A DNA stretch of 41,945 nucleotides from Spirochaetota bacterium (lineage in GTDB: Bacteria > Spirochaetota > JAHITG01 > JAFGFC01): the NCBI GenBank assembly GCA_016931325.1, contig JAFGFC010000085.1:1-41945 (forward strand), in the 5' to 3' direction. Positions 292 to 19,955 of this stretch are shown one piece after another. The notes below the pieces were generated by a model. It saw only the letters and a list, made by a program, of their open reading frames with translations, was not told where the DNA came from and ran no database searches. The position numbers were made by a program, and so were the translations under genes. Within the stretch, counting starts at the first letter, position 1; every line of letters starts with the position of its first letter.

Positions 292-367
292 GTACTATGT
301 TCTATGTACTAGGTACTAAGTTCTGGGATCTTAAAATACTTAGTACATAGTACTTGGCACTTAGTAC
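292..367. repeat. Imperfect 30-bp palindrome made of reiterated 'GTACTA' words
   Basis: The left arm (292-321) and right arm (338-367) are inverted copies, 25 of 30 positions identical, around a 16-nt loop. Within each arm a word close to GTACTAnGT is reiterated. The palindrome starts at the last base of the upstream stop codon and ends just before the Shine-Dalgarno of the next gene (about 372-380). It could fold as a 3' end or as a leader hairpin. No T-run follows, so it is not a classic intrinsic terminator. Confidence 0.75.
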
Positions 368-386
368 TTCTAAAGAGGTGTTTACA

Positions 387-3348: not shown

Positions 3349-4347
3349 ATGAAACAGATCTGGGTAAAAGCCATTCCCTATAAAAAGGAGATCGTGACAA
3401 CAGCACTGGAGAACGGAGCGACCGGAATTATAGTGGATAAAGAGCATGTGAATAAAGTAAAACAGCTGGGAAGGATCACGACGGTCAGTACGGCTAAAAG
3501 TGATCTTGTGTTCGGTAAGGATGTAGAATATATTGAGATCAGGAATAAAGAAGATGAAAGAAAAGCGGCTAAACTCAGTAAAAAAAAGAAAGTGATCGTG
3601 AAAACCACGGATTGGACCATCATTCCCCTTGAGAATTTGATCGCAGAGGGGGGAACGATCTTTGCCGAGGTAGTGGACGACAAATCTGCCAGAACAGCTC
3701 TGGAAGTACTGGAAAAAGGAGTGGACGGCCTGGTCATCAATAACCGGTCTTCAGCAAAAGTAAAATCGATCTTAAAAAGCGTCAGTCAGATGACAGAAGA
3801 GAAATATGAATTAACAGAGGTGGTTATCCAGAGGATCACGCCCCTGGGGATGGGTGACAGGATCTGTATTGATACGACAACGAACATGGCCATGGGCGAG
3901 GGCATGCTCACAGGCAATTCTTCTTCCGGCCTTTTCCTGGTTCATTCTGAAAGTGAAGAAAATCCTTATGTGTCTCCAAGGCCCTTTCGTGTCAATGCCG
4001 GAGCGGTCCATGCCTATGTCCTTACACCCGGTAATAAGACAAAATATCTTTCCGAGCTGAAAAGCGGTGATGCGGTTCTTATCCTTAACCATAAAGGGGA
4101 AACCAAGACGAGTAATGTGGGCCGGATAAAACTGGAAAGAAGGCCCATGCTTTTGATCGAAGCGACATATAATGATCAAAATTATTCTGTTATCCTTCAA
4201 AACGCCGAGACCATTCGCCTGACGAAAAAGAACGGCGCTCCTGTTTCTGTTGTTTCTCTTAAAAAAGGGGACAAAATACTCGCCTATTTAGAAAAACAAG
4301 GACGACATTTTGGCTTAAGAATTGAGGAGTCAATAACCGAAAAGTAA
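3349..4347 (+). CDS. 3-dehydroquinate synthase II (archaeal-type AroB')
   Basis: This 332-residue protein matches the 3-dehydroquinate synthase II family (MJ1249 type) along its length. In archaea that enzyme oxidatively deaminates 2-amino-3,7-dideoxy-D-threo-hept-6-ulosonate to 3-dehydroquinate for aromatic amino acids. Visible family blocks are the GMGDRICIDTTTNMAMGEGM segment (about 166-185), GNSSSGLFLVHSE, PYVSPRPFRVNAGAVHAY, KTKYLSELKSGD, an RRPMLLIEA strand, LQNAETIRL, PVSVVSLKKGD and the terminal RHFGLRIEE..EK. AGAGGAT lies 6-7 nt before the ATG. The usual bacterial AroB is unrelated. A homologue (GriH) also makes 3-amino-4-hydroxybenzoate from aspartate semialdehyde and a C3 unit. No partner gene for either route is in the window, so family assignment is firm but substrate is not. 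Gaps of 136 and 218 bp separate it from both neighbours. Confidence 0.88.
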   Translation: MKQIWVKAIPYKKEIVTTALENGATGIIVDKEHVNKVKQLGRITTVSTAKSDLVFGKDVEYIEIRNKEDERKAAKLSKKKKVIVKTTDWTIIPLENLIAEGGTIFAEVVDDKSARTALEVLEKGVDGLVINNRSSAKVKSILKSVSQMTEEKYELTEVVIQRITPLGMGDRICIDTTTNMAMGEGMLTGNSSSGLFLVHSESEENPYVSPRPFRVNAGAVHAYVLTPGNKTKYLSELKSGDAVLILNHKGETKTSNVGRIKLERRPMLLIEATYNDQNYSVILQNAETIRLTKKNGAPVSVVSLKKGDKILAYLEKQGRHFGLRIEESITEK

Positions 4348-4425
4348 TAGTAGGTACTATAGTCGTTTAATTTGGACTGAATTGACGTTTCAAGGTAAAT
4401 ATTTGACGTTTTCAATATAATTTTT

Positions 4426-4512
4426 AACGTCGAACCTCGTGGTCAAATCTATACTATCCATAGTAGATTTGACCAAACGAACATCCTGTTCGTTGACCTC
4501 GAACGTCGAACC
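4426..4512. repeat. Nested inverted repeats flanked by an 11-bp direct repeat
   Basis: Part of a 218-bp gap. AACGTCGAACC occurs at 4426-4436 and again at 4502-4512. Between the copies lie two perfect inverted repeats: an 11-bp arm GGTCAAATCTA (4441-4451) paired with 4464-4474, and AACGAACA (4476-4483) paired with 4487-4494 around TCC. GACGTT words also occur before 4420. The block ends just before the promoter of the following operon, so it could be a terminator for the upstream gene, an operator region, or a mobile palindrome. Confidence 0.7.
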
Positions 4513-4520
4513 AATATTTA

Positions 4521-4548
4521 TTGATATTTTTTAAATATGTGGTATAAT
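4521..4548 (+). promoter_or_regulatory. Sigma70-type promoter of the envelope operon
   Basis: TTGATA at 4521-4526 and a perfect TATAAT at 4543-4548 are separated by 16 nt. Transcription should start near 4555, so the leader before the ATG at 4566 would be only about ten bases and begin almost at the AGAGG ribosome binding site (4554-4558). Confidence 0.72.
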
Positions 4549-4565
4549 AAAAACAGAGGTAATGT

Positions 4566-5858
4566 ATGTGGAAAAAAGTATTAGTTATCACTTTCAAGAC
4601 CATTGTTTATATACTTTTTCTGGCTGTTCTTCTGGCTGTGCTGGCTAAAACAGGCAACATGCCGGCTGCCATGCCGAAGGAATATGCTGCCAAGATCGTT
4701 GAGTGGACTGACCGTACCTTATTTGCCCTGCATATTATTAAAGACGAGAATGTAATAAAAAAATATGATGAAAGATCTCCCCAGGTCAAACAGTTCAAGA
4801 CCACTTCTCAACTTTTAATCAAACGTAATCCTGTAAGTGTGATTATAAACTATATCCTGTTCAACGGCTATGATATGAAACAGGAAAATACCCTGAACAA
4901 GATATCCCTGGGCTGGAATGCCAGTGTGAAAAAGCATCTGTCGCTATTGGATAATCTGGCTGAGAATCCTTATGTGCGATCTGCTCTTTTGGAATCACAA
5001 ACAGGCATGATCGATACCTTTACAGCTGATTTTTTAAATTCTACGATAAAAGATTTTGAAATGATCTCGGGCTTTGTCATAAAAGATAAAACCGACAAGG
5101 TTATAAAATTTGTAAAGAACAAAGAACTTGACCTATCCATCCAGGATCTGGCCAAAAAAGGCATATCCGGTTCGCTTACATTGTCCTATTTAAAAGGTAA
5201 AAACTTTTTTCTGTATGAATATGTTTCTTCTTCTCAGGACATGAAAATTCTTTTCTTATTGCAGCCATCCTATTTTTCCAGTATACCCTTTGAGGTCGTA
5301 CCGTCCTCATCTCTTTTCTTGTTTAATGATGAAAACAAACTGATTTCATCCAGGATAGAGGAGGCCGGTCTGATGAACAAGATCGAGGAGTCTCTGGGTG
5401 TAAAACATTTTTTATATCGATCTGCCAATTATAATATCTCATATTTAAAGTTATCTAAAACAGAAGGACTATATCTGGGAATATATTACAAACAGTATCC
5501 GGTTTGGAAGATCGTTCTAAATACGGTCAAGTTCCTGGTTGTCTTGACAACGATTGTCATTATTGTATTGCTCACCAGGGTTTTCATTAAAAAAGTACTT
5601 TCTTACAGGTCCAGGACCAAGAAGGATGAAATGGCTATGATCACCGGCGCGATGATGGAAGTGGCCAAGAGCATAAAACTGGCAGCCGGAGCCACAGAAA
5701 AAGCGTCTCAATTCGCTCAGTTTGAAACCCAGAATGTTAAACAGATCATTAAAGAATTGAAGAATACCAAAGTCTTATCCAAGGCTTCTGAAATAGCAAG
5801 TGAAGAAACTGAACCCGGTGAGAATCAGGACAGTGGAGGTTGGAAATTAATCGATTAG
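4566..5858 (+). CDS. Bitopic sensor-like inner-membrane protein without an output domain (operon gene 1)
   Basis: The protein has 430 residues. One transmembrane helix lies near residues 7-26 and a second near 318-341 (KIVLNTVKFLVVLTTIVIIVL), leaving about 290 residues outside the cytoplasm. This segment has a helical start and then a mixed alpha/beta region (IKDFEMISGFVIKDKTDKV, SSSLFLFNDENKLISS) resembling Cache-type extracytoplasmic sensor domains. After the second helix there is only an ~85-residue tail, with no HAMP, kinase, cyclase or chemotaxis signalling domain. It ends GGWKLID, similar to the DDFKILE end of the related protein at 12566-13654. The ATG at 4566 is preferred because AGAGGT lies 5-6 nt upstream; ATG 4562 is out of frame. 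The end overlaps the next gene by 19 nt. Function unknown. Confidence 0.65.
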   Translation: MWKKVLVITFKTIVYILFLAVLLAVLAKTGNMPAAMPKEYAAKIVEWTDRTLFALHIIKDENVIKKYDERSPQVKQFKTTSQLLIKRNPVSVIINYILFNGYDMKQENTLNKISLGWNASVKKHLSLLDNLAENPYVRSALLESQTGMIDTFTADFLNSTIKDFEMISGFVIKDKTDKVIKFVKNKELDLSIQDLAKKGISGSLTLSYLKGKNFFLYEYVSSSQDMKILFLLQPSYFSSIPFEVVPSSSLFLFNDENKLISSRIEEAGLMNKIEESLGVKHFLYRSANYNISYLKLSKTEGLYLGIYYKQYPVWKIVLNTVKFLVVLTTIVIIVLLTRVFIKKVLSYRSRTKKDEMAMITGAMMEVAKSIKLAAGATEKASQFAQFETQNVKQIIKELKNTKVLSKASEIASEETEPGENQDSGGWKLID

Positions 5859-8800
5859 TCATTATTATTTTGATCCTTTTTTCTTGTTTAAGCCAGTCTG
5901 TTTTTTCTGAAGAAGAAACAGGTGGCCTGCAATTAACTTATCTTGAAAGTGGTATGGGGGGTGTCCCCTCAGGCATGGGTGGCGCTTTTACGGCCATTGC
6001 GGATGATGGAAATGCTCCTTTTTATAATCCTGCGGGCTTGCCCCGGATCAATAAAAAGCTGTTAACCCTTAATTACCAGAACAGTTTCATAGGGAGCGCC
6101 AACTTTATCTATCTCAGCTATGTCGGGATCATTAAAGAGAATAAACAGGGTCTGGGTTTTTCCTTTATCTGGGATGGGATCGCGGATCTCCCATCCTATA
6201 CAACCGAGCAAAAATCAGGTCCCTCTTACAGTTTTACACAGATTCAGGCCGGCATCAGCTATGGATTGAGATTACTTCCCCGGTTTTATACAGGGATTTC
6301 CGGAAAATTTTTCTATTACAATATTGCCACTTATTCAGCCAATAATTTTGATTCAGATATAGGATTATTCTATAATTTATTGAGGAATGTAAATATAGGG
6401 ATATTATTTCAGAATTTTCTTCCCCTCTCTTATCGATTGTATTCAAAAGAAGAAAGTATACCTTTCACTGTCCGATCCGGTATAGCCTTCCAGATCCCCG
6501 GATTAAATTTAATGTTAAGCTATGAGATGGAAAAACAGGTAGAGCCTTCTTTTGATGCCACACCCTTTTATCACCACGCCGGATTGAGATATAATCTGTT
6601 CCGTATGATCAATCTTACCGGAGGCTATAATAAGGGTGATATTACACTGGGCCTGCAGATCGCTATTGATAAATTCACCTTCTTTACAGGGACAGCCAGA
6701 AATGAACAGGGTGGGAAACTGTCTTTCAGCGCCTCTTATGAATTTCAGGATCAACCAAAAGCGGATATAGAAATGGAATATTTTTATGAAGGGATCTCGG
6801 CTTATCAGAACAAGGACTACCGATCGGCCGTTAAATATTTTGAGCAGGTTCTGGAAATGAGGGATAATCCCACAGCCGAGTTTTATTTAAAGAATTCAAA
6901 AGCTTACCTGGAATCTGAAGCCTGGATGTCCAAAGAAGATCAAGCCCTTGTGGGAATGAAGTATGAACTGGCTAAAAAATATATATCTCAGGAATTATAT
7001 GGTAAAGCCATTTCTACGCTGAGAGAGGTTCTGGAAATTGATCCATCCAATGAGGAGGCCAGAAATTTGGTCACTCAGGTCAAGAACAGGGTCAAGCAGG
7101 ATGTTGACAAGTACTATCAGAACGCATTGAGCCTTTTTAAGTCAAATAAAATGGAAGAATCTTTGAAAGAATGTGAAAATAGCCTGGCCCTGGATCCCGA
7201 GCATAAACCCACCCTGGAATTAAAAGCGAAGAATGAAGAGCTTTTAAAAGATATTCTTGCTAAACGAACCAAGGATGAACAGGTGGATGCCGAAGCCGAA
7301 GCCCTGTTTCAACAGGGTCTTGAGAATTATCAGAATGAAAATTGGATCGAGGCTGTCAATAATTTTAAAAAATCCTACGATTTGAAGAAGAATGAGGAGG
7401 CCAAGACCTATCTTGAAAAAACCCGAAAAAAATTGGAAGATGCCAAGATCACAGCCCAGCATAAAAAGGAATCGGATAATCATCTCAAATTGGGAATAGG
7501 ATTATATGAAAAAGGTCAGCTGCAAGAGTCGATCTCCGAATTCGAGAAAGCTCTTAATATCTATCCGCAGAATAGCGAAGCCCAAAAATACTTGACCGAA
7601 GCCAGAGGAAAATATGATGCGATCGTATCCGAGCCTCTGGAAGAAGGGAAAAAAGCCCTTCGCGAAGGGAGACTGGCCGATGCCATCTTGCAGTTTAGTA
7701 AAGTTCTGGAAATAGATAAAAATAATGCCGTTGCCAAGAGGTTTTTATCCAAGGCACAGTCTCTGATAAAAGATTATGTTAATTCTAATTTAAAACTGGC
7801 CAATAAAGAATATCAGGCTGAAAACTACGTTAAGGCTTTAGAATATTACCGGGAGGTTTTGAAACTTGATTCGGATAATCAGCCGGCAGGGAAAGGGGAA
7901 AAAGATTCCCGTATGAAACTGGATAGCACGATTAAACAGTATTTCAACAAGGGTGTAGAGTATTTTGATAAAAATGAAATGAAAAAATCGATCACCGAGT
8001 TCGAGAAAGCCCTTGACCTGGACCCGGAATATACGCCGGCGAAAAATTTTCTCACCAAGGCCAGAAAAAAATACGAGGAGAACAAACAGGCCTATCAGAT
8101 TCAGGAATATTGGCAGAATGGCCAGGACCTTTTCCAGAACAGGAATTTTGAAAAGGCCAAGGGATTTTTTGAAAAAGTACTTGAATCTGAACCGAATAAT
8201 ATGAAAGCCAGCGAATATATAGAAAGGTGTAATAAAGAACTGGCCGTACTGCAAAAGCAGGAACAGATCGCCAAGATCATTGCGGATGGCATGATCTTTT
8301 ACAGAAGAAGGAAATATTCGGATGCCATCGAAGTATGGCAGAAAGTGAAAGAGGTGGACCCTGAAAACAAATTGATCGACGAGTACATCTCCTATGCTAA
8401 ACGGGCTCAGGAAGAGAGCTTGAACAAATATTACAATGATGGGACAAAATATTTTCAGGAGGGGGATCTTTTAAGAGCGAAAGAGTCACTGGAAAAAGCG
8501 CTGGAGGCCAATCCCCGTCATCAAAAGGCTAAAAGAAAACTGGCCGAGGTAAAAGCGGCTATTTATCAAAGGGTCATGCAGACACAAAAAGCCGGCAAAG
8601 AGGAGTTTAAAAAAGGGAATTATGACGAGGCCGCCGAACAATTTGAGAATGTGCTTCAGTATGAGAAAGATAATGATGAGATAGAAGATTATCTGCGGAT
8701 GTCACAGGAAGCCAAGTCAGCCATGATACAGGGCAAAGATCTATTCAAACAGAAAAAATACAGCGAGGCCATGGAAAAATTTAATTTCGTTATGGACCTG

Positions 8801-9370
8801 AATAAGGATGACAGTAAAGCCAAACAGGCTTACAATCAGGTGCTGGCTGAAGGTAAAAAGCAGTTATCAACATGGTATAATGAAGGTATTGATTTCTACA
8901 ATAAAGGAGCCCTGAAGAGCGCTTATTTACGGTTTAAGAGTGTTGTCGAAACTGACCCGACTCACCAGGAAGGGAAAAAGATGCTTGACAAGGTTGATAC
9001 CGAGATAGAAAAGAAATGTTCTTCTCTATATAAATCAGGACTGTCCTATTATGAAAGCAAGGATTATAAAAAAGCCATTGACCAGTTTAACGATATCATG
9101 GAACTGAGAAATAATTACAAGGACGCCAGATTGATTCTGGCCAAAGCACAGAAAAATTATGACCAGCTGACCGCCAAAGAGAGGAAGGTGGCCAGTGAAA
9201 AGATCCAGGTCAGGCTGTATGCGGGTATCAAACTATACAGGGACGGGAAATTAAACGAAGCTATCAGGGAATGGGAGAAAGTGCTGGCAGTTGACCCGGG
9301 CAATGCCAAGGCCACGAAATATATAAACAGGGCTAGATATAAAATAAAACAGCTGGAAAAATTAAAATGA
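5840..9370 (+). CDS. PorV/UPF0164-like beta-barrel fused to 16 TPR units (operon gene 2)
   Basis: The protein has 1176 residues. A signal peptide (about 1-23, ending VFSEEE) precedes a barrel-like region to about residue 310 with the family's opening (GMGGVPSGMGGAFTAIADD, FYNPAGL) and many amphipathic strands. From about residue 314 to the end I count 16 TPR-like units spaced about 54 residues apart, each with a Gly/Ala-Y-F core and an EAI..FEKVLEIDP..A block, linked by about 20 charged helical residues. TPR superhelices bind protein partners, so this is likely the scaffold of the operon. The start is uncertain: TTG at 5840 directly abuts the GGAGG at 5835-5839, while an ATT at 5846 has better spacing. 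Translational coupling to the upstream gene is likely. The stop overlaps the next ATG (ATGA). Confidence 0.75.
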   Translation: MEINRLVIIILILFSCLSQSVFSEEETGGLQLTYLESGMGGVPSGMGGAFTAIADDGNAPFYNPAGLPRINKKLLTLNYQNSFIGSANFIYLSYVGIIKENKQGLGFSFIWDGIADLPSYTTEQKSGPSYSFTQIQAGISYGLRLLPRFYTGISGKFFYYNIATYSANNFDSDIGLFYNLLRNVNIGILFQNFLPLSYRLYSKEESIPFTVRSGIAFQIPGLNLMLSYEMEKQVEPSFDATPFYHHAGLRYNLFRMINLTGGYNKGDITLGLQIAIDKFTFFTGTARNEQGGKLSFSASYEFQDQPKADIEMEYFYEGISAYQNKDYRSAVKYFEQVLEMRDNPTAEFYLKNSKAYLESEAWMSKEDQALVGMKYELAKKYISQELYGKAISTLREVLEIDPSNEEARNLVTQVKNRVKQDVDKYYQNALSLFKSNKMEESLKECENSLALDPEHKPTLELKAKNEELLKDILAKRTKDEQVDAEAEALFQQGLENYQNENWIEAVNNFKKSYDLKKNEEAKTYLEKTRKKLEDAKITAQHKKESDNHLKLGIGLYEKGQLQESISEFEKALNIYPQNSEAQKYLTEARGKYDAIVSEPLEEGKKALREGRLADAILQFSKVLEIDKNNAVAKRFLSKAQSLIKDYVNSNLKLANKEYQAENYVKALEYYREVLKLDSDNQPAGKGEKDSRMKLDSTIKQYFNKGVEYFDKNEMKKSITEFEKALDLDPEYTPAKNFLTKARKKYEENKQAYQIQEYWQNGQDLFQNRNFEKAKGFFEKVLESEPNNMKASEYIERCNKELAVLQKQEQIAKIIADGMIFYRRRKYSDAIEVWQKVKEVDPENKLIDEYISYAKRAQEESLNKYYNDGTKYFQEGDLLRAKESLEKALEANPRHQKAKRKLAEVKAAIYQRVMQTQKAGKEEFKKGNYDEAAEQFENVLQYEKDNDEIEDYLRMSQEAKSAMIQGKDLFKQKKYSEAMEKFNFVMDLNKDDSKAKQAYNQVLAEGKKQLSTWYNEGIDFYNKGALKSAYLRFKSVVETDPTHQEGKKMLDKVDTEIEKKCSSLYKSGLSYYESKDYKKAIDQFNDIMELRNNYKDARLILAKAQKNYDQLTAKERKVASEKIQVRLYAGIKLYRDGKLNEAIREWEKVLAVDPGNAKATKYINRARYKIKQLEKLK

Positions 9371-12300
9371 AAAAATACAGAAAGCTATTCATTATTGTGC
9401 TGGTCATCATAGGGGTGGCCTTGTTTAACGTTTCCCGCGCTGTTGAAAAATGGTCAGTATTGACTGTTGAAAAAGGTCTGCCTCACCGTTTTGTAAAGTA
9501 TGTCACCTCCGACGGGGATCTTATATGGATAGCCACAGCGAACGGTGTGGCTGTTTTTGATACGTCTAAAGATAAGATCATTGACGTTCTTTCCACAAAA
9601 AAGGGACTTTTAGATAATTTTATCACTTCCGTGGCTGTTGATCAGGACTTGGTCTGGATAGGTACCTCCCAGGGACTCAACGTGTATAATAAAAAGACCA
9701 AGGAAATAAAGAATTATACAAAAAAAAGCGGGTTGTCGGATGATTTTATTACAGATATTGTTATTTCAGCAAATTATGTCTGGGCCGCCACTAAATTCTG
9801 GGGAGTGAATCAATATGATAAGGCGACAAGGACATGGAAAAATTTTTCCGTCCTGCAGGGACTGGCCGATAATTCAATAAATTGTCTGGCGCTGGACGGT
9901 ACCCTGGTCTGGGCCGGGACCGCAAATGGCCTGAGCTTTTACGATGAATTTTCCGGATTATGGATCAGCTATGATATTACCCAGGGGCTTCCTCATCCCA
10001 ATGTCAGGGCCCTGGCTGTTGACGGGCAGTATATATGGTGTGGAACAACCGGCGGCGGACTGGCCCGTTTTGATAAATTTGATGAATCTTTCCGGATCTT
10101 TACCACACAGGAAGGTCTGGCCGATGATTTCATCCAGTCCCTGAAACTCGATGGTATATTTTTATGGATCGGAACGTTTTCCGGGGTGACACGGTATGAT
10201 AAGGATAAGAACAAATGGGTCACCTATACTATAAATGACGGGCTTTCTGAAAACTCTGTGAGTGCTATTGAGCTGGACGGTAATTATATATGGTTCGGGA
10301 CAGACGGAGGAGGGGCTACCCGGTTTGACAAGGAGTTGCCGGAAGCTCAGCTGTCTCCTTTATCCTACTATGAGAAACCGGGAAAGATCATTATCAAAGG
10401 GAGTGCTTTTGATTATCAGGGGATTGGATCCTTCAGGATTAGTTTTAAAAATGAAGGGATGAAAGAATGGATCTCTGCCGGTATAACATTATCACCTTTA
10501 AAAAATATCAAAGATCAAAAGCTGGCCGAATGGAATGTAGGGAATCTTTTAAACCTGAGTTATGATATTAAGCTTGAAGTGATCGATAAAGAGGGTAAAA
10601 AGAACGAATCCCTTATGCCTTTTGTTATTGATACAAAACCACCCAGCCTCACTCTTCAGACTGTTCCTGAATCAGTGAAGGAATCCCCTGTTTTTATCAA
10701 AGGTTCTTATATTGATGAAAACCTGAGTCGCATTGTTGTTCAACCGGATAATCTCCCGGCTGAAGTGAACAGGATGACACGTTCCTATTCGGCAGAAATT
10801 CCCCTGAAGAAAGGGATGAATAATTTAGAGATCATAGCCTATGATATCGCTGATCAAAAAACAAGTTTAAAGGCCCCCATCCTGTATGATACGGATATTC
10901 CCCAGATCGTTCTGGATAGATATGAAGAAAAAACAGGAAAAACCGAGATTCAGCTTTCCGGCACGATCATAGATAGCAGTTTGAAAAGGCTTGTTCTTAA
11001 TCCGGGCAATGTTGAGATAAGTTTCGAGTCAAGCCAACCCGGAGAATACAAGTTCACTTATAAAATACCCCTTTCAGCCGGTTTGAATAAATTCGAGATC
11101 AGCGCTTATGATTTTGTGGGAAATAAATCTTCGGTTAATCCTGTTATTGAATATACCAGTACCCTGCCTGTGATAAGTCTGGATAAAAGCACGAGCAAAG
11201 TTCAGTCTTCTGATTTTATTATAAAGGGCAAATACATTGATGATAATGTTGATTATATCACAATTGAACCGCCTAACCAGCAGGCCAAGATCGACAGGAA
11301 CAGACAGACTTTTACTCTACCGGTGCAATTGGCTGAAGGAGAAAATGTTTTTACAGCCACGATCGTTGATAAGGATAACAATAAATCCCTGGATTTTTTA
11401 TCTGTCGTTTTCTCAACAGAAAAGACATTCATCAAATTAGTTGATCTACCCCCTTACACCTCTGATAAGAAAGTAAAAATTACAGGGGAATATAATGAAC
11501 CCAATTTAAAAAGGATCGTTCTTCAACCGGGTGAGATAGAGGCCATGATCGATTTTGACAAGAAATTATTCATCGCTCAGACCCCGGAACTTCAATATGG
11601 GAAGAATAATTTCAAGGTAGAAATGTACGATCAATTCGGGAATAAAAAGAGTCTGGATTTTTCCATTGTATTTGATGATAAATCACCTATTATGACCCTG
11701 GAGGATCTGCCCAAAGTGGTCAATACACCAAAGATTACGATAAAGGGAACTTATATTGAAGATCATATGAATAAAATAGTCCTTGAACCCGGCGGGATCA
11801 CTTCCGAATTGAACGACAGGGAAAAAAGTTTTCGTGCGATCTATGAATTGCGAACCGGAGATAATAAAATAAAGATAATATCCTATGATAAAGCGCAGAA
11901 TAGGTCAGAGATCACAAAGACAATAAATCTTGTTCCTCAGATTACGACCAGTATTGAAGAAACGGAAGGGGCTTATGATTCCGAATACGTTAAGAAGTTA
12001 AAGGACGAGATACGCAGGTTAAAAGACCTTTTAAAAAAAGGCGGCATCATCGTTTCACCCAGAAAGGTTAGTGTCGCCATTCCCCCGGAGAGCGCTTTTT
12101 ATTTTGTGCCTTATTATCCTCAAGAAGGCCACTCCATGATGGAGATATCAAGGAAATACCTGGGAAGTCCTCTTTTTATCGATTTTATATCCCGGCTGAA
12201 CAGAACTGATGAAATTCAGAAAAGGAAAAAGATATTATTACCCAGCAGGAAATTATTAAAACTTTATAATCAGATCAGCGATAAAAAATACAAAAACGTC

Positions 12301-12579
12301 ATGGATATAATCGGTCTCAGCTATAATCTTTCAAAAGGCAATGTGAACCAATTCAGAAAGAATTTATACTATTTCCTGGTAAAAAAAAGATTTTTACCTC
12401 TGAGCAGTATGAAGTTCTACAACACGAGAAACTGGATCAATCTGGGGGATTATGTGATCTCACTGTCATCATCCGTAAAAAATAACAGCTATAAAAAAGC
12501 CATCCTGTTGCATTTCCATCCATCCCGACTGAGTGTAAAGGTCCTTTCAGGCAAGTTGATCAGTTATGAAACAAAATAA
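9367..12579 (+). CDS. Secreted seven-bladed propeller / Ig-like repeat / LysM-like protein (operon gene 3)
   Basis: The protein has 1070 residues with a signal peptide (about 1-25, cleavage near SRA). Residues about 35-325 contain seven blades of the two-component-regulator propeller type, each with a [LYF][IVL]W.[GA]T..G....[YF][DN] motif. Then come a first Ig-like segment and five more beta-sandwich repeats of about 80 residues, each with a 'I.GxYIDxx..RIVLxPG' pattern and a 'NKFEISAYDxxGNKSS'-like end. A short helix (VKKLKDEIRRLKDLLKKG) leads to a last ~180-residue domain whose start resembles LysM (EGHSMMEISRKYLGSP, then RLN and ILLPS), a fold that often binds peptidoglycan. Unlike hybrid two-component sensors with such propellers, it has no membrane helix or kinase after them. 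It starts in an ATGA overlap and ends inside the next gene. Confidence 0.72.
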   Translation: MKKYRKLFIIVLVIIGVALFNVSRAVEKWSVLTVEKGLPHRFVKYVTSDGDLIWIATANGVAVFDTSKDKIIDVLSTKKGLLDNFITSVAVDQDLVWIGTSQGLNVYNKKTKEIKNYTKKSGLSDDFITDIVISANYVWAATKFWGVNQYDKATRTWKNFSVLQGLADNSINCLALDGTLVWAGTANGLSFYDEFSGLWISYDITQGLPHPNVRALAVDGQYIWCGTTGGGLARFDKFDESFRIFTTQEGLADDFIQSLKLDGIFLWIGTFSGVTRYDKDKNKWVTYTINDGLSENSVSAIELDGNYIWFGTDGGGATRFDKELPEAQLSPLSYYEKPGKIIIKGSAFDYQGIGSFRISFKNEGMKEWISAGITLSPLKNIKDQKLAEWNVGNLLNLSYDIKLEVIDKEGKKNESLMPFVIDTKPPSLTLQTVPESVKESPVFIKGSYIDENLSRIVVQPDNLPAEVNRMTRSYSAEIPLKKGMNNLEIIAYDIADQKTSLKAPILYDTDIPQIVLDRYEEKTGKTEIQLSGTIIDSSLKRLVLNPGNVEISFESSQPGEYKFTYKIPLSAGLNKFEISAYDFVGNKSSVNPVIEYTSTLPVISLDKSTSKVQSSDFIIKGKYIDDNVDYITIEPPNQQAKIDRNRQTFTLPVQLAEGENVFTATIVDKDNNKSLDFLSVVFSTEKTFIKLVDLPPYTSDKKVKITGEYNEPNLKRIVLQPGEIEAMIDFDKKLFIAQTPELQYGKNNFKVEMYDQFGNKKSLDFSIVFDDKSPIMTLEDLPKVVNTPKITIKGTYIEDHMNKIVLEPGGITSELNDREKSFRAIYELRTGDNKIKIISYDKAQNRSEITKTINLVPQITTSIEETEGAYDSEYVKKLKDEIRRLKDLLKKGGIIVSPRKVSVAIPPESAFYFVPYYPQEGHSMMEISRKYLGSPLFIDFISRLNRTDEIQKRKKILLPSRKLLKLYNQISDKKYKNVMDIIGLSYNLSKGNVNQFRKNLYYFLVKKRFLPLSSMKFYNTRNWINLGDYVISLSSSVKNNSYKKAILLHFHPSRLSVKVLSGKLISYETK

Positions 12580-13654
12580 ATTTATAAAAGTCGTTTCTAA
12601 AATATCGGCTGTTTTTTTGGGTATACTGGTGGTTCTTTTCTTATTAAATTTGTCCGGTCTTTTTTATTTTTTATACAAATCCAATTATAATAAAGCCAAT
12701 TTAACGATTAAAGAACTGTTCATCCAATTTATGGAAGAAGGAGGCCGCGTCGTCGAATCTGTTTCGGAGGATCCTATTATAAAAAGTTCTATTATGCAAT
12801 ATCATCTGGGGGAGAATATATTGCCTGTTTTAAAAGTACTCAGCATGTATAAAAAAAACTATCAGCAGATAAAAAATATCGGGATCTTTGACAGTCATTA
12901 TAATTTTATTACCTCGGATATTGAAAGCCTTTCCGCTTCCCGCCAGGTGCCTGTAGAATGGTTCGTTTCCTCGCAGAATAAAAAATTATATTTATCTCCC
13001 ATTTATTTTCACAGAGAATTTAACCAGTATATTGTTTCCTTTATCACTCCATTGAAAAATGTGATTGATGAGACGGTTGGATTTATCAAGCTGGATATTT
13101 CTATCAAGCCTCTTTTAGAAGAAATGGAAAAATATACGGATATCACGATCATGGTCATTAACGGTTCTGAAAACAGGATCAATTTTGTGTATCCTCTCGA
13201 TGCCAACATCTCAGATTTGAAAAGTGTTGATCTGCCTGTGATAGAGGTCAAAACATTTACTCCGCTCGATTTACCTGGTTTTAAATTATCCTATGGCGTC
13301 AGGATCCCTGAGCCGGACATCACCCTGATGACCGCGGCTACTTCGCGGTTTTTTGAATTTCCTCTTTTTTTTAAACTGTTCTTGTTATTTACAGCAGTGG
13401 TGTTTATATTATCCTATGGATACCTGTGGTTCGAAAAACGTCAGGAGATCATCCTGGATAAAAAGAAAAAATTCAAAAACCTGATCAATGATATAGTAAA
13501 TATTTCAAAAAAAGCAGAAAGGGATAATATGATCTTAATAGAAAATATCCCCACGGCAGAGCAGATAGAAGAATCTCAGTCAAAAGAGGGATCAGATGAT
13601 AAAACGTATAAGAAAAAAGCCGATCTTGAAGACGATTTCAAAATACTTGAATAA
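12566..13654 (+). CDS. Bitopic Cache-like membrane protein without an output domain (operon gene 4)
   Basis: The protein has 362 residues. Transmembrane helices lie near residues 12-36 and 270-288. The ~230 residues between them look like a double-Cache (PAS-like) ligand-binding domain: a long first helix, then NIGIFDSHYNFITSD, an LYLSPIYFHREFNQYIVSFITPL strand pair and a GFIKLDIS strand leading into a second, smaller subdomain. Such domains normally feed a histidine kinase, cyclase or chemoreceptor, but here only ~70 polar residues follow. The end DDFKILE resembles the GGWKLID end of the protein at 4566-5858. The start ATG overlaps the previous gene by 14 nt with no clear ribosome binding site, so coupled translation is likely. 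It overlaps the next gene by 59 nt. Confidence 0.65.
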   Translation: MKQNKFIKVVSKISAVFLGILVVLFLLNLSGLFYFLYKSNYNKANLTIKELFIQFMEEGGRVVESVSEDPIIKSSIMQYHLGENILPVLKVLSMYKKNYQQIKNIGIFDSHYNFITSDIESLSASRQVPVEWFVSSQNKKLYLSPIYFHREFNQYIVSFITPLKNVIDETVGFIKLDISIKPLLEEMEKYTDITIMVINGSENRINFVYPLDANISDLKSVDLPVIEVKTFTPLDLPGFKLSYGVRIPEPDITLMTAATSRFFEFPLFFKLFLLFTAVVFILSYGYLWFEKRQEIILDKKKKFKNLINDIVNISKKAERDNMILIENIPTAEQIEESQSKEGSDDKTYKKKADLEDDFKILE

Positions 13655-16523
13655 TTTATTTATACTGCTGTTCTTAACCATCACGCTTTCATCTCCACTT
13701 TTTTCCTTTGGCAAGAATAAAATACAATATAAACAATTTGATTGGAATATTTTAAAAACCCCTCATTTTGATATTTATTATAATAAGAGCCAGAGGACGC
13801 TGGCCGAGCAGAGCGCTGTGCTTCTGGAAGATGCCTGCGCCCAATTAAGCGAGAATTTAAGATTCGAACTCACAAGGATCATACCTGTTATTATTTATTC
13901 CAGCCACAATGATTTTGAACAATCCAATGTGATCATGGAAATGATCGGGGAAGGGACAGGAGGCTTTACCGAGGTTTTCAAGAACAGGGTCGTTGTCCCT
14001 TTTACAGGTTCCTATTCCGAGTACAGGCATGTTCTGCATCACGAACTGACTCATGCCTTTCAATTCAATATTTTGCTGGGAGGATTCTGGGAGTCTTTGT
14101 TTACACGACAGTTCATGTATATGCCTCCTCTCTGGTTCATGGAAGGTGTGGCAGAACAACAATCCATTGGTTGGGACAGAGAATTGGATATGGTGTTGAA
14201 GGATGCCACGGTCAACAATATGCTTATTCCTCTGGCTGAGATGGAGAACAGTTATTCCCTGAACGGTCTGCAGGTATTCATGCTCTATAAGGAAGGGCAG
14301 GGTTTTGTTCAGTATGTTGTGGAAAAGTATGGCCGCTATAAAGTGGGAGAGATATTCAAGGTTTTTAAAAGAACCAGAGATTTTATTCACAGTTTTAAAA
14401 AAGCCGTAGGGAAAACCCATTACCAGGTAAATCAGGAGTGGTTCAGGTACTTGAGAAAGAGATACTGGCCGCTGGTCAAGGATAAGAAAGAACCAGGTGA
14501 ATTTTCGAAAAAATTAACCGATCATCTTCAGGACAGCTCATTTTATAATGTTAAACCCGTATGGTCGCCTGATGGCAAAAAGATAGCGATTTTAACTGAC
14601 CGGCATATCTTTACTGACATCATTCTGATCGATGCCCGGACAGGCGAGGAACTGGACACCATCGTCGAAGGTGGCCGGGAAAGCAGTTTTGAGGAGATGC
14701 ATACACGTGATAACATGCTCTCATGGTCCCATGATGGGAAATATCTCATCTTTGTTTCCAAAGCCGGTGAATTTGACCGGATCCATATATACGACTTTAA
14801 AGAAGAAGAAGTGATCAGAAGTATTAATCCCCGAATGGATGCGGTGGCTTCGCCCGCCATCTCGTCTGATAATAAATGGATAGCCTTCAGCGGAACAAAG
14901 AACGGAAAGAATAATCTTTATGTGATCCAATTTAACGGGTCAAAAATGACAAGGCTGACCGATGACCTTTACTCTTATTTTTATCCTGTTTTTTCCAAAG
15001 ACGGAAAGTATATCATCTTCACCTCGAACAGAGACAAGGGTTATCTTTCCGGGGATATGGATATATTTGCCATGCATACCCAGACCAGAAAGATAACAAA
15101 GATCGTCAGTTCAAAAGGACAGAATCAATCACCCGCTTTAAGTCGCGATGGAAAGATAATGACGTTTTCTTCAGACAGGGATGGTACCCCTAATCTTTAT
15201 ATTAAATATGTTGATAATTTCGAAGATCCGGAAGGTTTGCTCAAGAAAAAAGAATATAAGATAACTGATGTGATAGTGGGTGTCTTTGATCCTTATTTTT
15301 CTCCTGATGCTAAAAAGGTTGTTTTTTCCAGCTTTTTTAAACTGGGACAGGATATCTATGTGATGGATGTTCCGGAAGAGATCGAAAGAATGGAATCGAT
15401 CGAAAATTCGGCTTCTCTGGCCAAGCTGGATCAGCCTCCCAAAACAGCGTTTGACCTGGAGGAAGCCGGAAAAGAAGATTACACGTTTTCGCTTACACCG
15501 GACTGGGTCATGGGTGGTTTCATGTACAGTTCGGTCTATGGATTCGGCGGTTTTACTCAAATAGGAGCCAGTGATATACTGGGGGATCACCAGTTTATGC
15601 TGGCTACTGATTTTCTTTCAGGTGTTAATGATTTTAACTTCCAGTTTGTTTATTATTATCTGGCGCATCGGATCAATTATGGGGTGGGCGTCTTTCACTT
15701 TAAGGATTACTATTTCGATTATGAATATGAAAATGGGGGATATATATTCGAAACCTTTTATAAACGCCGATACGGGCTTGATCTTTTAATGAGCTATCCC
15801 TTTACTAAATTTTTCAGGACCGATCTGGAGTTGCTGGGCATGCGGTATATCCGCCGGTCAGAGGAAGAAGAACTGGTAAAAAATGTGGATACAAATATTT
15901 ATGCCACCAGCCTGGCTTTTGTCTACGATACGATCCTCTGGGGTGAAACAGGTCCGGCGTGGGGATTCAGGAGCCGGCTTATTTATCAGAGATCATGGCC
16001 CATAACAGGAAAGGATTGGATCTATGAAATGGCTTTTTTAGACTTGAGGAAATACTTTTTGATCAATAAAAAATATACCTTTGCTTTTCGGCTCCAGGGC
16101 GGATCTGTATGGGGGCCGGACAGACATGAGAATAAATTCTATCTGGGTGGCTATAATACCATCCGCGGCCATCGATATGACGCTTACTCCGGTTTGAGGA
16201 TGTTTTTATATAATATGGAATTCCGTTTTCCTTTTATCAGAAGGATTACCATCGTATGGCCGTTTACATTCAATATCAGTAATTTGAATTCAGTATTTTT
16301 CTGGGATTTTGGCAGCGCCTGGGATAACACGGAAAAATGGCGCATTGGTTCGAGCAATGGCCGGTATAAATTCCAGGATCTGAAAAGCGGACTGGGCTGG
16401 GGGTTCAGACTCAGAGTGATCGTCTTTCAATTGAGGCTTGACCTGGCCACTCCGTGGGACGGCTCCAAGATCCTGCCTTTAAGCAAATGGCAGGGTCTTT
16501 TTTCACTCGCCTATGATTTTTAA
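13596..16523 (+). CDS. Gluzincin protease domain + PD40 propeller + Omp85-like outer-membrane barrel (operon gene 5)
   Basis: The protein has 975 residues. After a basic N-terminus and signal sequence (about 1-38) comes a peptidase MA-like domain with HEXXH at 149-153 (HELTH) and the downstream Glu of MEGVAEQ (E183), the usual zinc ligand set of gluzincins. Residues about 315-610 contain about six PD40/WD40-like blades (WSPDGKKIAI, WSHDGKYLIF, FSKDGKYIIF, LSRDGKIMTF, FSPDAKKVVF) as in TolB. The last ~330 residues are barrel strands with an Omp85-like YNTIRGHRYDAYSGLRMFLY segment and a terminal Phe (LAYDF) suiting the BAM recognition signal. ATG 13596 is chosen for AGAGGGATC upstream and its positively charged n-region, although this gives a 59-nt overlap; TTG 13647 is a weaker choice. 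Likely an outer-membrane protein with a soluble protease; substrate unknown. Confidence 0.8.
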   Translation: MIKRIRKKPILKTISKYLNNLFILLFLTITLSSPLFSFGKNKIQYKQFDWNILKTPHFDIYYNKSQRTLAEQSAVLLEDACAQLSENLRFELTRIIPVIIYSSHNDFEQSNVIMEMIGEGTGGFTEVFKNRVVVPFTGSYSEYRHVLHHELTHAFQFNILLGGFWESLFTRQFMYMPPLWFMEGVAEQQSIGWDRELDMVLKDATVNNMLIPLAEMENSYSLNGLQVFMLYKEGQGFVQYVVEKYGRYKVGEIFKVFKRTRDFIHSFKKAVGKTHYQVNQEWFRYLRKRYWPLVKDKKEPGEFSKKLTDHLQDSSFYNVKPVWSPDGKKIAILTDRHIFTDIILIDARTGEELDTIVEGGRESSFEEMHTRDNMLSWSHDGKYLIFVSKAGEFDRIHIYDFKEEEVIRSINPRMDAVASPAISSDNKWIAFSGTKNGKNNLYVIQFNGSKMTRLTDDLYSYFYPVFSKDGKYIIFTSNRDKGYLSGDMDIFAMHTQTRKITKIVSSKGQNQSPALSRDGKIMTFSSDRDGTPNLYIKYVDNFEDPEGLLKKKEYKITDVIVGVFDPYFSPDAKKVVFSSFFKLGQDIYVMDVPEEIERMESIENSASLAKLDQPPKTAFDLEEAGKEDYTFSLTPDWVMGGFMYSSVYGFGGFTQIGASDILGDHQFMLATDFLSGVNDFNFQFVYYYLAHRINYGVGVFHFKDYYFDYEYENGGYIFETFYKRRYGLDLLMSYPFTKFFRTDLELLGMRYIRRSEEEELVKNVDTNIYATSLAFVYDTILWGETGPAWGFRSRLIYQRSWPITGKDWIYEMAFLDLRKYFLINKKYTFAFRLQGGSVWGPDRHENKFYLGGYNTIRGHRYDAYSGLRMFLYNMEFRFPFIRRITIVWPFTFNISNLNSVFFWDFGSAWDNTEKWRIGSSNGRYKFQDLKSGLGWGFRLRVIVFQLRLDLATPWDGSKILPLSKWQGLFSLAYDF

Positions 16524-16544
16524 TTTCTATCGGCCCTTTTTTTA

Positions 16545-16572
16545 TTGACTTTTCGCTATGTTTTATTAATAT
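16545..16572 (+). promoter_or_regulatory. Possible promoter of the sugar-enzyme genes
   Basis: TTGACT (16545-16550) and TAATAT (16567-16572) are 16 nt apart, just after the upstream operon and before the gene at 16670. The -10 match is only 4 of 6, so this is moderate evidence. Confidence 0.4.
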
Positions 16573-16583
16573 TTTTCTTCACC

Positions 16584-16653
16584 CCTTTTAGTATTGTTGG
16601 TTTGTTGTTAGTTTTTTACTAAACACTAAAATCTAAAAACTAAACACTAAAGG
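16584..16653. repeat. Imperfect palindrome with reiterated 'ACTAAACACTAAA' words
   Basis: The left arm (from CCTTTTAG at 16584) and right arm (to CTAAAGG at 16653) are imperfect inverted copies. The right arm repeats ACTAAACACTAAA-like words twice, with a similar ATCTAAAA between them. It lies directly upstream of the Shine-Dalgarno GAGG (16656-16659) of the next gene. It is the same style as the palindrome at 292-367 but uses a different word. Confidence 0.6.
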
Positions 16654-16669
16654 TTGAGGTTGATTTGGT

Positions 16670-19600
16670 ATGAGCAAAATAAAATATTTAACACAGGGTG
16701 ATGAATTTATAATTAAAAATTATAATCAGGCAAAGCCTTTTTCTTCGTTTTTTCCGGGTATAGCCGGGATGTGGGGGAAACCCATGTGGGTTTTTTATGT
16801 TAACAGGGGCCAGGCTATTACGTGTCTGGGGACCAGGGATAAAAATGGAGCAATCATGGAATTTTTAGCCGCTAATAAGGCTTACCGGCATACCTCTTTT
16901 AATGGATTCAGGACTTTTATAAAAGAAAATGATGTTTTTGAACCTTTTATCGATCATGCAGAAAATACGAATATTGAGCAAACCATTCATATTACCTCAT
17001 ACCGATTAATGTTGGATGAGATCAATGTCCCCAGGGGATTAAAGATAACAGTAGAATATTTTACTATTCCCAATGAAAATATCCCATCCCTGGCCAGGAT
17101 CCTGTCAATTAAAAATATTTCAAATGGAATGAAGCGTTTGGAATGCATTGACGGAATGCCCATGATCATACCCTACGGCACTACCGATTATCTTTTAAAG
17201 AACATGAGCCGACTGGCAGAGGGATGGTTCAGCGGAGTACAATATTCTGCCACCGGGTTCCCGGTTTACAAATTGGCCGTTGTCCCGGAGGACACCCCTG
17301 AAATTGAGGAAATTGAACAGGCGAATTTTTACGGGGCTTTTTATTATTCTAAAGATACAGTAACCCTGCCTGATTTTATCATTGATTCTGATGTTGTATT
17401 TGGTGAGATGAAGGATTTTGCCAGTCCTGTTGAGTTTATCCGGCATAGTAAATTCATGAATCCAAAGATGTTGAATTCCAAGAACAAGACCCCTTCAGCC
17501 TTTGGCTATTTTGATATGACGCTCAATCCGGACCAGGAATTCAGTTATTATTCTATAATCGGTTCAGCCGGTCATATCTCGGATATCGATCCTTTTTTGA
17601 CCCGTATTATGAAAAAGACCTACCTGCCGGACAAAAGAGAGGAGAACAAGCGGATCATCAAAAATCTGGGCAATAAGATCATGACCTGTTCTTCCTCAGA
17701 GGAATTTAATAATTATTCCGAACAGACGTTTATTGACAATCTTTTACGTGGCGGATTCCCGGTCTCGATCGGCGAGGGCAAAGGGAAAAAAAATTATTAT
17801 ATTTATTCCCGTATACACGGGGATATGGAGAGGGAGTATAATAATTTCGTTATTACACCCCAGTATTTTTCAGAAGGGAATGGCAGCTATCGCGATGTCA
17901 ATCAAAACAGAAGAAATGATATCTTTTTCCATACGGAATTAAATGATGAGGCGATCATCTATTTTATTAATCTTTTGCAGACTGATGGATTTAATCCTCT
18001 CACGATCGTAGGGTCGGAACTTTTAGTAAAGAACAAAAAAGAGTTTTTAACAGTGTTCAAGACCGGCGATCATAAAAAATTGTCTGAATTTATCTGTCAA
18101 CCCTTCAGCCTGGGTGATTTTTACGATTACCTGGAAAAGAACAGGATTAAAAGCTCCCTGACCAAAGAAAAATTATTGTCCAGATTATTACTGCATTCTG
18201 ACCGGATCGATAATGCCTTACCCGGGGTGGGATTCTGGTCAGATCACTGGCATTATAATATAGACCTGTTACAGAGTTATAACTCCATCTATCCTGACCG
18301 TTTCAAAGAGTTATTCCTGGATAAGAGGGTATTTACCTTTTATGATAATCCCAATACGGTTCTGCCGAGAGACCAGAAGCACATCCTTTATAAAGGGAGA
18401 CCCCTGCAGCTTCATTCGGTCTATTGTCATACCGTCAAGAAGGAAATGATAGAGAAAAGAAAACTGGATAAGAACCTGGTGAGAAAGGATTTCGGACAGG
18501 GACAGGTTTATAAAACAACTCTGATCGCCAAGCTTTTATCTTTAATCGCTAATAAATTTGCCTCTCTGGATCATGAAGGTACCGGAATCGAAATGGAGTC
18601 AGACAAGCCGAACTGGTGTGATGCCCTGAACGGATTGCCCGGTGTTTTTGGTTCATCCTCGGCTGAATCAATGGAATTGATCCGATTAATAAAATTTATT
18701 TTGCGTTGTTTATGCCAGATGATCATCGATGAAAATTATGAAATAAAAATGGCTGAAGAGACCGTTGATCTTTTATATCGGCTTGAAAAGGTCACAGTAA
18801 AATATTTTGACGATAAATACAACTTTTGGAATGAAACACACGAGGCGAAAGAAAAATACTGGAAAAAAACCCTTTTCGGTCTATCAGGCAAGGATAAAGC
18901 GTTAACCAAGAAACGTATACGTGATATTTTAAATCTTTTTCTGGTAAAATTAAACAAAGGCCTTGACAAAGCCTTTGATAAGAGATCAGGTGTGATCAAT
19001 ACTTATTTTAAGAATCATGTTACAAAGTACAAAATAGTAAAAGAGAAAGGAAAATCGAAAATAAACCATAACGGGTGGCCCTGTATCAAAGTTCTGGAAT
19101 TCAAGCAAAAACCCCTCCCTCTTTTTCTCGAAGGACCTGTGCATTATTTAAGGATAGAAGAGGACAGGGTTAAAAGTCGACAGTTGCATGAAAAAGTCAT
19201 TCAAAGCGGACTTTATGATAAGAAACTGGCCATGCTCAAAGTCAACGCGTCTCTGCAGGATGAAGATATCAGTCTGGGGAGGATCAAGATCTTTACGCCG
19301 GGCTGGTTGGAGAATGAATCTGTCTGGTTGCATATGGAATATAAATATCTGTTTGAATTGCTGCGAAATAATTTTTCTTCAGAATATTTCCGTATAATGA
19401 AAAAAGCGCTGGTTCCTTTTATGGACCCGCATGTTTATGGCAGGAGTATCTTTGAAAATGTCTCGTTTTTGGCCAGCAGCGCTCATCCTGAGGACTCTAT
19501 TCATGGACAGGGTTTTGTGGCCAGGCTTTCCGGTTCCACAGCGGAATATATCTCTATATGGATCGCTATGACCTCAGGGCTATCCCCCTTTTACCTGAAA

Positions 19601-19936
19601 GGGGATAAACTTTTTTTAAAGTTCAAACCTCAATTGGCTTCCTGGATGTTTACGCAGGAAAATAAAAAGGTGATCATATATCAAAAAGGATTGTCGGAAG
19701 AGATTGCAGTTCCAAAGAACACCTTTTGTTTTAAATTTCTGGATAAAGCGGTTGTCCTGTATCATAATCCCGATCGAAAGGATACTTTTGGAAACCAGGC
19801 GGCCGTAATACGAACGATAAAACTGACTTATCATAATAATAAAGTGATAGAATTAAAATCAGATATCATCCCTTTGCCGTATTCTCAGGAAATACGTGAA
19901 GGGAAGGTGAAACGGATCGATCTGATATTACACTAA
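16670..19936 (+). CDS. Cellobiose-phosphorylase-like (GH94/GH36-related) carbohydrate-active enzyme
   Basis: The 1088-residue protein has no signal peptide and should be cytoplasmic. Its N-terminus (KPFSSFFPGIAGMWGKPMW, VFYVNRGQAITCLGTRDK, MEFLAANKAYRHTSFNGFRT) matches what I recall of long proteins annotated 'cellobiose phosphorylase' in several anaerobes. Two beta-sandwich-like regions (about 1-330) precede a likely (alpha/alpha)6 region with GVGFWSDHWHYNIDLLQSYNSIYPDRF near residue 520, where family members place acidic catalytic residues. It is longer than classical cellobiose phosphorylase (~800 residues), so I do not assign a substrate or say whether it is a phosphorylase or a hydrolase. 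A Shine-Dalgarno GAGG lies about 10 nt upstream. It is followed after 19 nt by a GH35-like gene, suggesting one pathway for an imported oligosaccharide. Confidence 0.65.
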   Translation: MSKIKYLTQGDEFIIKNYNQAKPFSSFFPGIAGMWGKPMWVFYVNRGQAITCLGTRDKNGAIMEFLAANKAYRHTSFNGFRTFIKENDVFEPFIDHAENTNIEQTIHITSYRLMLDEINVPRGLKITVEYFTIPNENIPSLARILSIKNISNGMKRLECIDGMPMIIPYGTTDYLLKNMSRLAEGWFSGVQYSATGFPVYKLAVVPEDTPEIEEIEQANFYGAFYYSKDTVTLPDFIIDSDVVFGEMKDFASPVEFIRHSKFMNPKMLNSKNKTPSAFGYFDMTLNPDQEFSYYSIIGSAGHISDIDPFLTRIMKKTYLPDKREENKRIIKNLGNKIMTCSSSEEFNNYSEQTFIDNLLRGGFPVSIGEGKGKKNYYIYSRIHGDMEREYNNFVITPQYFSEGNGSYRDVNQNRRNDIFFHTELNDEAIIYFINLLQTDGFNPLTIVGSELLVKNKKEFLTVFKTGDHKKLSEFICQPFSLGDFYDYLEKNRIKSSLTKEKLLSRLLLHSDRIDNALPGVGFWSDHWHYNIDLLQSYNSIYPDRFKELFLDKRVFTFYDNPNTVLPRDQKHILYKGRPLQLHSVYCHTVKKEMIEKRKLDKNLVRKDFGQGQVYKTTLIAKLLSLIANKFASLDHEGTGIEMESDKPNWCDALNGLPGVFGSSSAESMELIRLIKFILRCLCQMIIDENYEIKMAEETVDLLYRLEKVTVKYFDDKYNFWNETHEAKEKYWKKTLFGLSGKDKALTKKRIRDILNLFLVKLNKGLDKAFDKRSGVINTYFKNHVTKYKIVKEKGKSKINHNGWPCIKVLEFKQKPLPLFLEGPVHYLRIEEDRVKSRQLHEKVIQSGLYDKKLAMLKVNASLQDEDISLGRIKIFTPGWLENESVWLHMEYKYLFELLRNNFSSEYFRIMKKALVPFMDPHVYGRSIFENVSFLASSAHPEDSIHGQGFVARLSGSTAEYISIWIAMTSGLSPFYLKGDKLFLKFKPQLASWMFTQENKKVIIYQKGLSEEIAVPKNTFCFKFLDKAVVLYHNPDRKDTFGNQAAVIRTIKLTYHNNKVIELKSDIIPLPYSQEIREGKVKRIDLILH

Positions 19937-19955
19937 ATCAATCAGGAAATTCGGG

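Follow-up and report, generated by a model that had tools for sequence, protein, structure and literature searches.

A five-gene Spirochaetota operon that may serve as a trans-envelope module for SprA-dependent surface export

Overlapping genes whose predicted products are distributed over the inner membrane, the periplasm and the outer membrane raise the question of what those products might do together. Such genes occupy positions 4566-16523 of the + strand in the window, by which we mean the whole 41,945-nucleotide stretch that was analysed (contig JAFGFC010000085.1, assembly GCA_016931325.1), from a metagenome-assembled genome of a Spirochaetota bacterium. The five open reading frames, F1 to F5, overlap serially by 19, 4, 14 and 59 nt, just as an earlier, sequence-only reading of the window had claimed, and that reading took their products to form one machine spanning the envelope. 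We consider it possible, and somewhat short of probable, that the operon encodes a trans-envelope sensing or relay module serving a surface-export pathway of Spirochaetota that depends on SprA and resembles the type IX secretion system (T9SS). The five genes are as follows, with tetratricopeptide repeats abbreviated as TPR and immunoglobulin-like as Ig-like.

4566..5858, + strand: F1, predicted bitopic inner-membrane protein with a ~290-aa external dCache-like domain and a ~95-aa cytoplasmic tail, without an output domain (translation, profile match)
5840..9370, + strand: F2, signal peptide, predicted PorV/PorQ-family outer-membrane barrel (~aa 30-310), then ~16 periplasmic TPR units (profile matches, repeat period)
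9367..12579, + strand: F3, predicted exported protein with a Reg_prop beta-propeller (~aa 26-335), Ig-like Glucodextran_B/Big_13 domains (~336-860), a coiled segment and a C-terminal domain (profile matches, PDB 4a2l)
12566..13654, + strand: F4, predicted bitopic inner-membrane protein with an external double-Cache sensor domain and a ~75-aa cytoplasmic tail (Foldseek, hhalign)
13596..16523, + strand: F5, predicted Peptidase_MA gluzincin with a TolB-like PD40 propeller and an Omp85-superfamily outer-membrane barrel (profile matches)

A conserved triad and its predicted receptors

Conservation was examined in 393 Spirochaetota genomes, of which 24 carry F3; some loci end at contig borders. The full five-family order is found in the window, in L022 (genome G002) and in L023 (G004), and is split over two contigs (L045, L021) in G001. 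The set was found only in these four genomes, from GTDB families f1, f2 and f4, and G001, G002 and G004 are the nearest relatives of the window genome. Overlaps in the relatives are 25 and 4 nt followed by a gap in L022, and 1, 4, 23 and 50 nt in L023; F5 is 62% identical within the order and 38% identical to its G004 counterpart. F1 was present only in the four five-gene genomes among 28 searched. Adjacency of F2 and F3 extends to seven GTDB families (f1, f2, f4, f10, f13, f24 and f43, that in f24 being inferred across a contig break), and a bitopic, F4-like dCache protein, here termed C, lies directly 3' of F3 in those seven and in f17, f35, f39 and f45, eleven families in all. Loci with the F2-F3-C triad include the paralogous L169-L171 as well as L167, L193/L168, L173 and L175, mostly without F5 alongside. 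Searches beyond Spirochaetota covered 49 F5-bearing genomes and found no full-length F3; in four of them there were matches, all confined to the propeller range.

The conserved, older unit is the triad of F2, F3 and the bitopic protein C. Because this triad forms the core, F5 is usually solitary and F1 was found in only four of the 28 genomes searched, the five products do not amount to a single, indivisible machine. The earlier proposal is thus retained for the predicted placement of parts in the inner membrane, periplasm and outer membrane, and given up for five-part unity; likewise, the expected conservation of the five genes in relatives extends to three other genomes (families f2 and f4), with the families separate elsewhere.

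F1 and F4 each have two transmembrane segments, an external domain between them and a short cytoplasmic tail. By modelled fold and by profile, F4 is a dCache receptor. Its structure model (mean predicted local distance difference test score, pLDDT, 68.5; ectodomain mostly 75-89) retrieved the KinD sensor domain by Foldseek (E 1.4e-9) together with many dCache and chemoreceptor domains, and hhalign aligned it with the dCache_1 protein of a paralogous locus (E 1.7e-8); the paralogous-locus protein matches Pfam dCache_1 at E 1.5e-13. F1 is a predicted dCache receptor by profile alone (hhalign against L170:5952-7367, 95% probability, E 3.5e-8); its structure model was discarded as too poor for a fold search (pLDDT 46), a Pfam scan of F1 gave no match, and profiles of F1 and F4 did not match each other. 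The tails, of ~75-95 aa, had no Pfam match and no output domain (kinase, cyclase, methyl-accepting chemotaxis protein or phosphatase), so that the description of two bitopic proteins with external domains and no output domain was borne out. Bitopic proteins of ~680-770 aa that follow F3 in L157-L166 have a conserved cytoplasmic region, with no Pfam match in the two scanned (L157, L159), and a recurring EFxFLDP-like motif in their tails. The recurrence of short motifs near cytoplasmic tails (EFxFLDP, DDFKILE, GWKLID) was noticed by eye only.

The F2 barrel scores 85.3 bits against the PorV/PorQ-family model NF033709 (cut-off 90; E 5.5e-24; aa 34-302), and the separate barrel of the paralogous locus L170 scores 139.7 bits. 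Since the repeat spacing is ~53 aa, the region behind the barrel fits roughly 16 TPR units; many TPRs are present, as the sequence-only reading proposed, the number being approximate and exactly 16 not established. The F3 propeller matches PDB 4a2l at E 1e-32 and is followed by the expected Ig-like domains, with no transmembrane segment past the propeller and no kinase domain. Against the PorZ family model F3 reaches 23.4 bits (cut-off 260), a partial match only. A LysM-like end had also been suggested; isolated C-termini of three orthologues gave no Pfam LysM match at E<=10, and this identity was rejected as unsupported.

Signalling genes stand beside several of the other triads. A second, paralogous locus in the same genome (L170) encodes a beta-helix surface protein, a PorV-family barrel, a barrel-TPR protein, F3 and a dCache_1 protein without an output domain, and continues with a HAMP-SpoIIE phosphatase, a STAS protein, an RsbW-like HATPase_c_2 protein and Hsp70; L169, in G001, has the same layout. 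A ParA-like ATPase, assigned by sequence, follows the triad in L175; in L173 such an ATPase is accompanied by a HAMP-cyclase-PilZ protein. Two tiny exported proteins of the FlgD_ig or C-terminal-domain (CTD) type are encoded immediately 5' of F2 in L167 and L193 (families f10 and f24).

Co-occurrence with a SprA homologue

The genome of the window encodes a SprA/Sov homologue of 1,921 aa (L178:6352-12117; TIGR04189 E 1.5e-30), with collinear matches at profile positions 125-258, 582-786 and 1386-1470. Homologues occur in 76 of the 393 genomes, all under the curated cut-off, and are strongly concentrated where F3 is found: in 21 of 24 genomes with F3 vs 55 of 369 others (Fisher 1e-13), and in 16 of 19 F3 genera vs 34 of 149 genera without F3 (p 2.5e-7). 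At family level, SprA accompanies F3 in 12 of 13 families (p ~3e-4, at least 46 families). Two of the three F3 genomes lacking a SprA match are <80% complete. The genome of the window has 43 matches to TIGR04183, the T9SS-type C-terminal domain, many of them above cut-off, and F5 adjoins the SprA gene directly in family f15, and only there. On these sequence-derived grounds, namely co-occurrence, cargo-type domains and a partial gene neighbourhood, the module is tied to a SprA/T9SS-like pathway. In families f17, f35 and f45 (L182, L186, L190, L191) the gene directly 5' of SprA is small and, by its sequence, STAS-like, which suggests partner-switch control of the translocon.

Several observations weigh against a role in SprA-dependent export. 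The SprA homologue scores 105 bits where the curated cut-off is 200, and the counts of F3 with SprA were corrected for phylogeny to genus and family level only. The TIGR04183 matches overlap domains of the FlgD_ig type and, because the two domains are alike, their status as cargo signals is not proven. The operon and the SprA gene lie on different contigs (C100 and C52), no output domain is encoded within or beside the operon in the window, and 29 genomes, including all f30 members found and genus g44, carry F5 without detectable SprA. In a PDB sequence search the SprA homologue had no match. As to other T9SS parts, the motor component GldM (TIGR03517) was matched in 0 of 19 genomes, with control genomes equally without match, and a PorU-type C25 sortase (PF01364) was missing from 20 of 21 genomes, that of the window included.

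Taken as a module for SprA-dependent export, the set may act as a sensor or helper built into that route. From the parts we infer a physical assembly, a ligand, a direction of signal, the identity of the output and cleavage of cargo. The PorV-like barrel of F2 would sit in the outer membrane, at the site where exported proteins with C-terminal domains arrive, and its TPR arm would extend into the periplasm and dock the propeller/Ig rod of F3. F3 could then signal to the dCache ectodomains of F1 and F4 what is happening at the surface, such as whether cargo is bound and whether export is running or blocked. The cytoplasmic tails of the two receptors would in turn engage an output encoded outside the operon, for which the SpoIIE-STAS-RsbW switch at the genome's own paralogous locus is a possible candidate. 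F5 would act as a zinc protease of the outer membrane, trimming cargo or clearing it away. The version in the window would be one to which a surface protease has been added and for which the output is supplied in trans.

The protease F5, the promoter and flanking genes

The following additional features were located in the operon and just before it.

4521..4548, + strand: promoter, predicted sigma-70-type, TTGATA-16-TATAAT with a TG-extended -10 (consensus match only)
14040..14054, + strand: HELTH zinc-binding motif of F5 (H149-H153), invariant in alignment A2
14142-14144, + strand: E183 of F5, in PPLWFMEG, candidate third zinc ligand
15513..16520, + strand: predicted Omp85-like barrel of F5 with an IRGH motif and terminal Phe (PF01103 E 1.6e-8; NF047779 E 1.4e-13)

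F5 had been read as a barrel carrying a gluzincin and a PD40 propeller, and matches to Peptidase_MA_2, PD40 and Omp85 confirm this composition. Among its homologues HExxH is kept in 75 of 77 and EGxAE in 73 of those 75; with both motifs kept in nearly all, zinc-protease activity of F5 is probable. The (V/I/L)RG(F/Y/H/W) motif of the barrel occurs in 48 of 71 homologues and a terminal F or W in 66 of 71. Profile scans of F5 recognised no POTRA domain, and no characterised homologue was found. The gene occurs in 82 of the 393 Spirochaetota genomes, usually alone, and in 23 of the 24 with F3. It is common in the FCB (Fibrobacterota-Chlorobiota-Bacteroidota) phyla, with homologues in Neomarinimicrobiota, Zixibacteria, Cloacimonadota, Bacteroidota and others, and is mostly solitary there; in the loci fetched from non-Spirochaetota phyla, none of the other four families is encoded directly beside it. 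Because 29 genomes carry it without a SprA match, we rejected F5 as a strict T9SS marker, and its tie to secretion is not a strict one. In Ignavibacteria and Bacteroidota (L097, L120, L125, L126, L127, L132, L142) the gene of the F5 homologue is preceded, always at ~8 kb, by one for a Reg_prop protein of 350-380 aa, which marks a conserved neighbourhood.

The predicted promoter matches the consensus at 11 of 12 positions and ends 17 nt 5' of the first ATG. It is the top scorer of the 54 consensus matches in 3500-17500, where 36 were expected, in an A+T-rich genome; of the one strong promoter claimed at the outset, what holds is the best site in 14 kb, as a consensus match only. F2 starts with TTG, a start supported by the ATG at the equivalent position in the relative L022. 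A dispersed intergenic element of ~80 bp (window 4426-4512) contains a perfect 12-nt inverted repeat with arms at 4440-4451 and 4464-4475; it has eight matches in the same genome (75-100% identity), some between unrelated genes, and resembles repetitive extragenic palindromic sequences or miniature inverted-repeat transposable elements. We rejected the palindrome at 4440-4475 as an operator specific to the operon, because it belongs to this dispersed repeat.

Just 5' of the operon, past a DHQS gene, lies a PorV/PorQ-family gene (window 354-3212; NF033709 120 bits) in whose product a coiled coil of ~600 aa interrupts the barrel. Directly 3' (window 16670-22064) are a homologue of GH149-like beta-1,3-glucan phosphorylase (NF058639, a partial match under cut-off) and then a gene of the GH35/GH42 type.

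Alternative readings and what the module would mean

Surveys have found the T9SS to be restricted to Bacteroidetes (PMC4793230). The genome analysed here resembles T9SS-bearing Bacteroidota, with their SprA/Sov, PorV, PorW, PorZ and PorU, in having a SprA homologue, PorV-family barrels and CTD-type domains, and an outer-membrane TPR protein, a propeller protein and a protease are accessory parts in both. One may ask if the set is structural and does in Spirochaetota what the attachment complex does in the T9SS: F2, the PorZ-like F3 and the PorU-like F5 would receive, process and anchor cargo, and the dCache proteins would only anchor or gate the set. Its parts match PorV, PorZ and PorU in kind (barrel, propeller, protease), F3 has its weak PorZ match, F5 adjoins SprA in f15 and has a nearly universal catalytic motif, and the absence of a C25 sortase in 20 of 21 genomes leaves room for another protease. 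We nevertheless think this unlikely: the PorZ match is partial and, at 23 bits, far from the cut-off of 260, the triad usually lacks F5 alongside, and two dCache receptors, together with SpoIIE/STAS or cyclase genes beside paralogues, point to signalling. The set also differs from the T9SS in that no C25 sortase was found, nor GldM (matched in no control genome either), that dCache receptors are no T9SS part, and that F2 unites barrel and TPRs in one protein; in the T9SS, PorW stands alone as a TPR lipoprotein of the outer membrane, linking T9SS parts across the periplasm (PMC8754138).

Alternatively, the module may sense sugars, peptides or envelope damage in a manner unrelated to secretion, its co-occurrence with SprA reflecting shared lineages. 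In Bacteroides hybrid kinases Reg_prop propellers do the sensing (PDB 4a2l), small molecules are ligands of dCache domains, and glycan genes (GH149-like, GH35/42) lie 3' of the operon. This reading is rather unlikely given the genus-level contrast in SprA content (16/19 vs 34/149) and given that the same loci encode a PorV-type barrel and miniproteins of the CTD type. It is quite improbable that F5 works independently, as an outer-membrane protease that came to share a transcript with a sensor triad for convenience and without joint function, as its mostly solitary occurrence in Spirochaetota and the FCB phyla might suggest, since the five-gene order and tight overlaps are kept across f1, f2 and f4 despite 38% F5 identity and F5 is present in 23 of 24 F3 genomes.

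Literature searches found no described system with this composition, in agreement with what the sequence-only reading had stated, and the nearest comparisons each share some parts. In Porphyromonas gingivalis, the small CTD protein PorA controls T9SS expression via a membrane sensor (PMC7712824). In this PorA-PorXY-SigP feedback, as in L167 and L193 with their tiny CTD-type proteins 5' of the triad, a small exported CTD protein stands upstream of a membrane sensor; there the sensor is a kinase, whereas here the receptors lack an output domain and the relay would pass through F2 and F3. The PorW and PorA parallels are analogies, not tests of membership. The Reg_prop hybrid two-component systems of Bacteroides (PDB 4a2l, 3v9f) sense outside the cytoplasm with a propeller of this family, but join propeller and kinase in one protein, while F3 is separate, exported and carries Ig-like domains. 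RsbU/SpoIIE-RsbV-RsbW partner switching has its counterparts in the HAMP-SpoIIE, STAS and HATPase_c_2 genes by the L170 triad, and none of its genes in the operon of the window. Finally, F5 shares a TolB-like PD40 propeller with TolB and an Omp85-like barrel with the Omp85 superfamily, but adds Peptidase_MA and has no recognised POTRA domain.

A broader claim, which we regard as doubtful, is that this is a new Spirochaetota signalling system, in which a PorV-TPR protein and a propeller/Ig rod inform inner-membrane dCache receptors about SprA-type export, neither TonB nor a sensor kinase being involved; the claim would include T9SS-like export outside Bacteroidota. In few cases has it been worked out how diderm bacteria inform the cytoplasm of what happens at the outer membrane. 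The triad offers a defined, testable gene set for this question, with outputs that vary (partner switch, cyclase/PilZ, ParA) and a surface protease that is optional. If a module serving SprA-dependent export is the correct reading, a functional context would be gained for the widespread, uncharacterised Peptidase_MA-propeller-Omp85 family. SprA-type export would then operate in many members of Spirochaetota, a phylum without a T9SS according to surveys, and the SprA-type pathway would bring its own trans-envelope sensing module.

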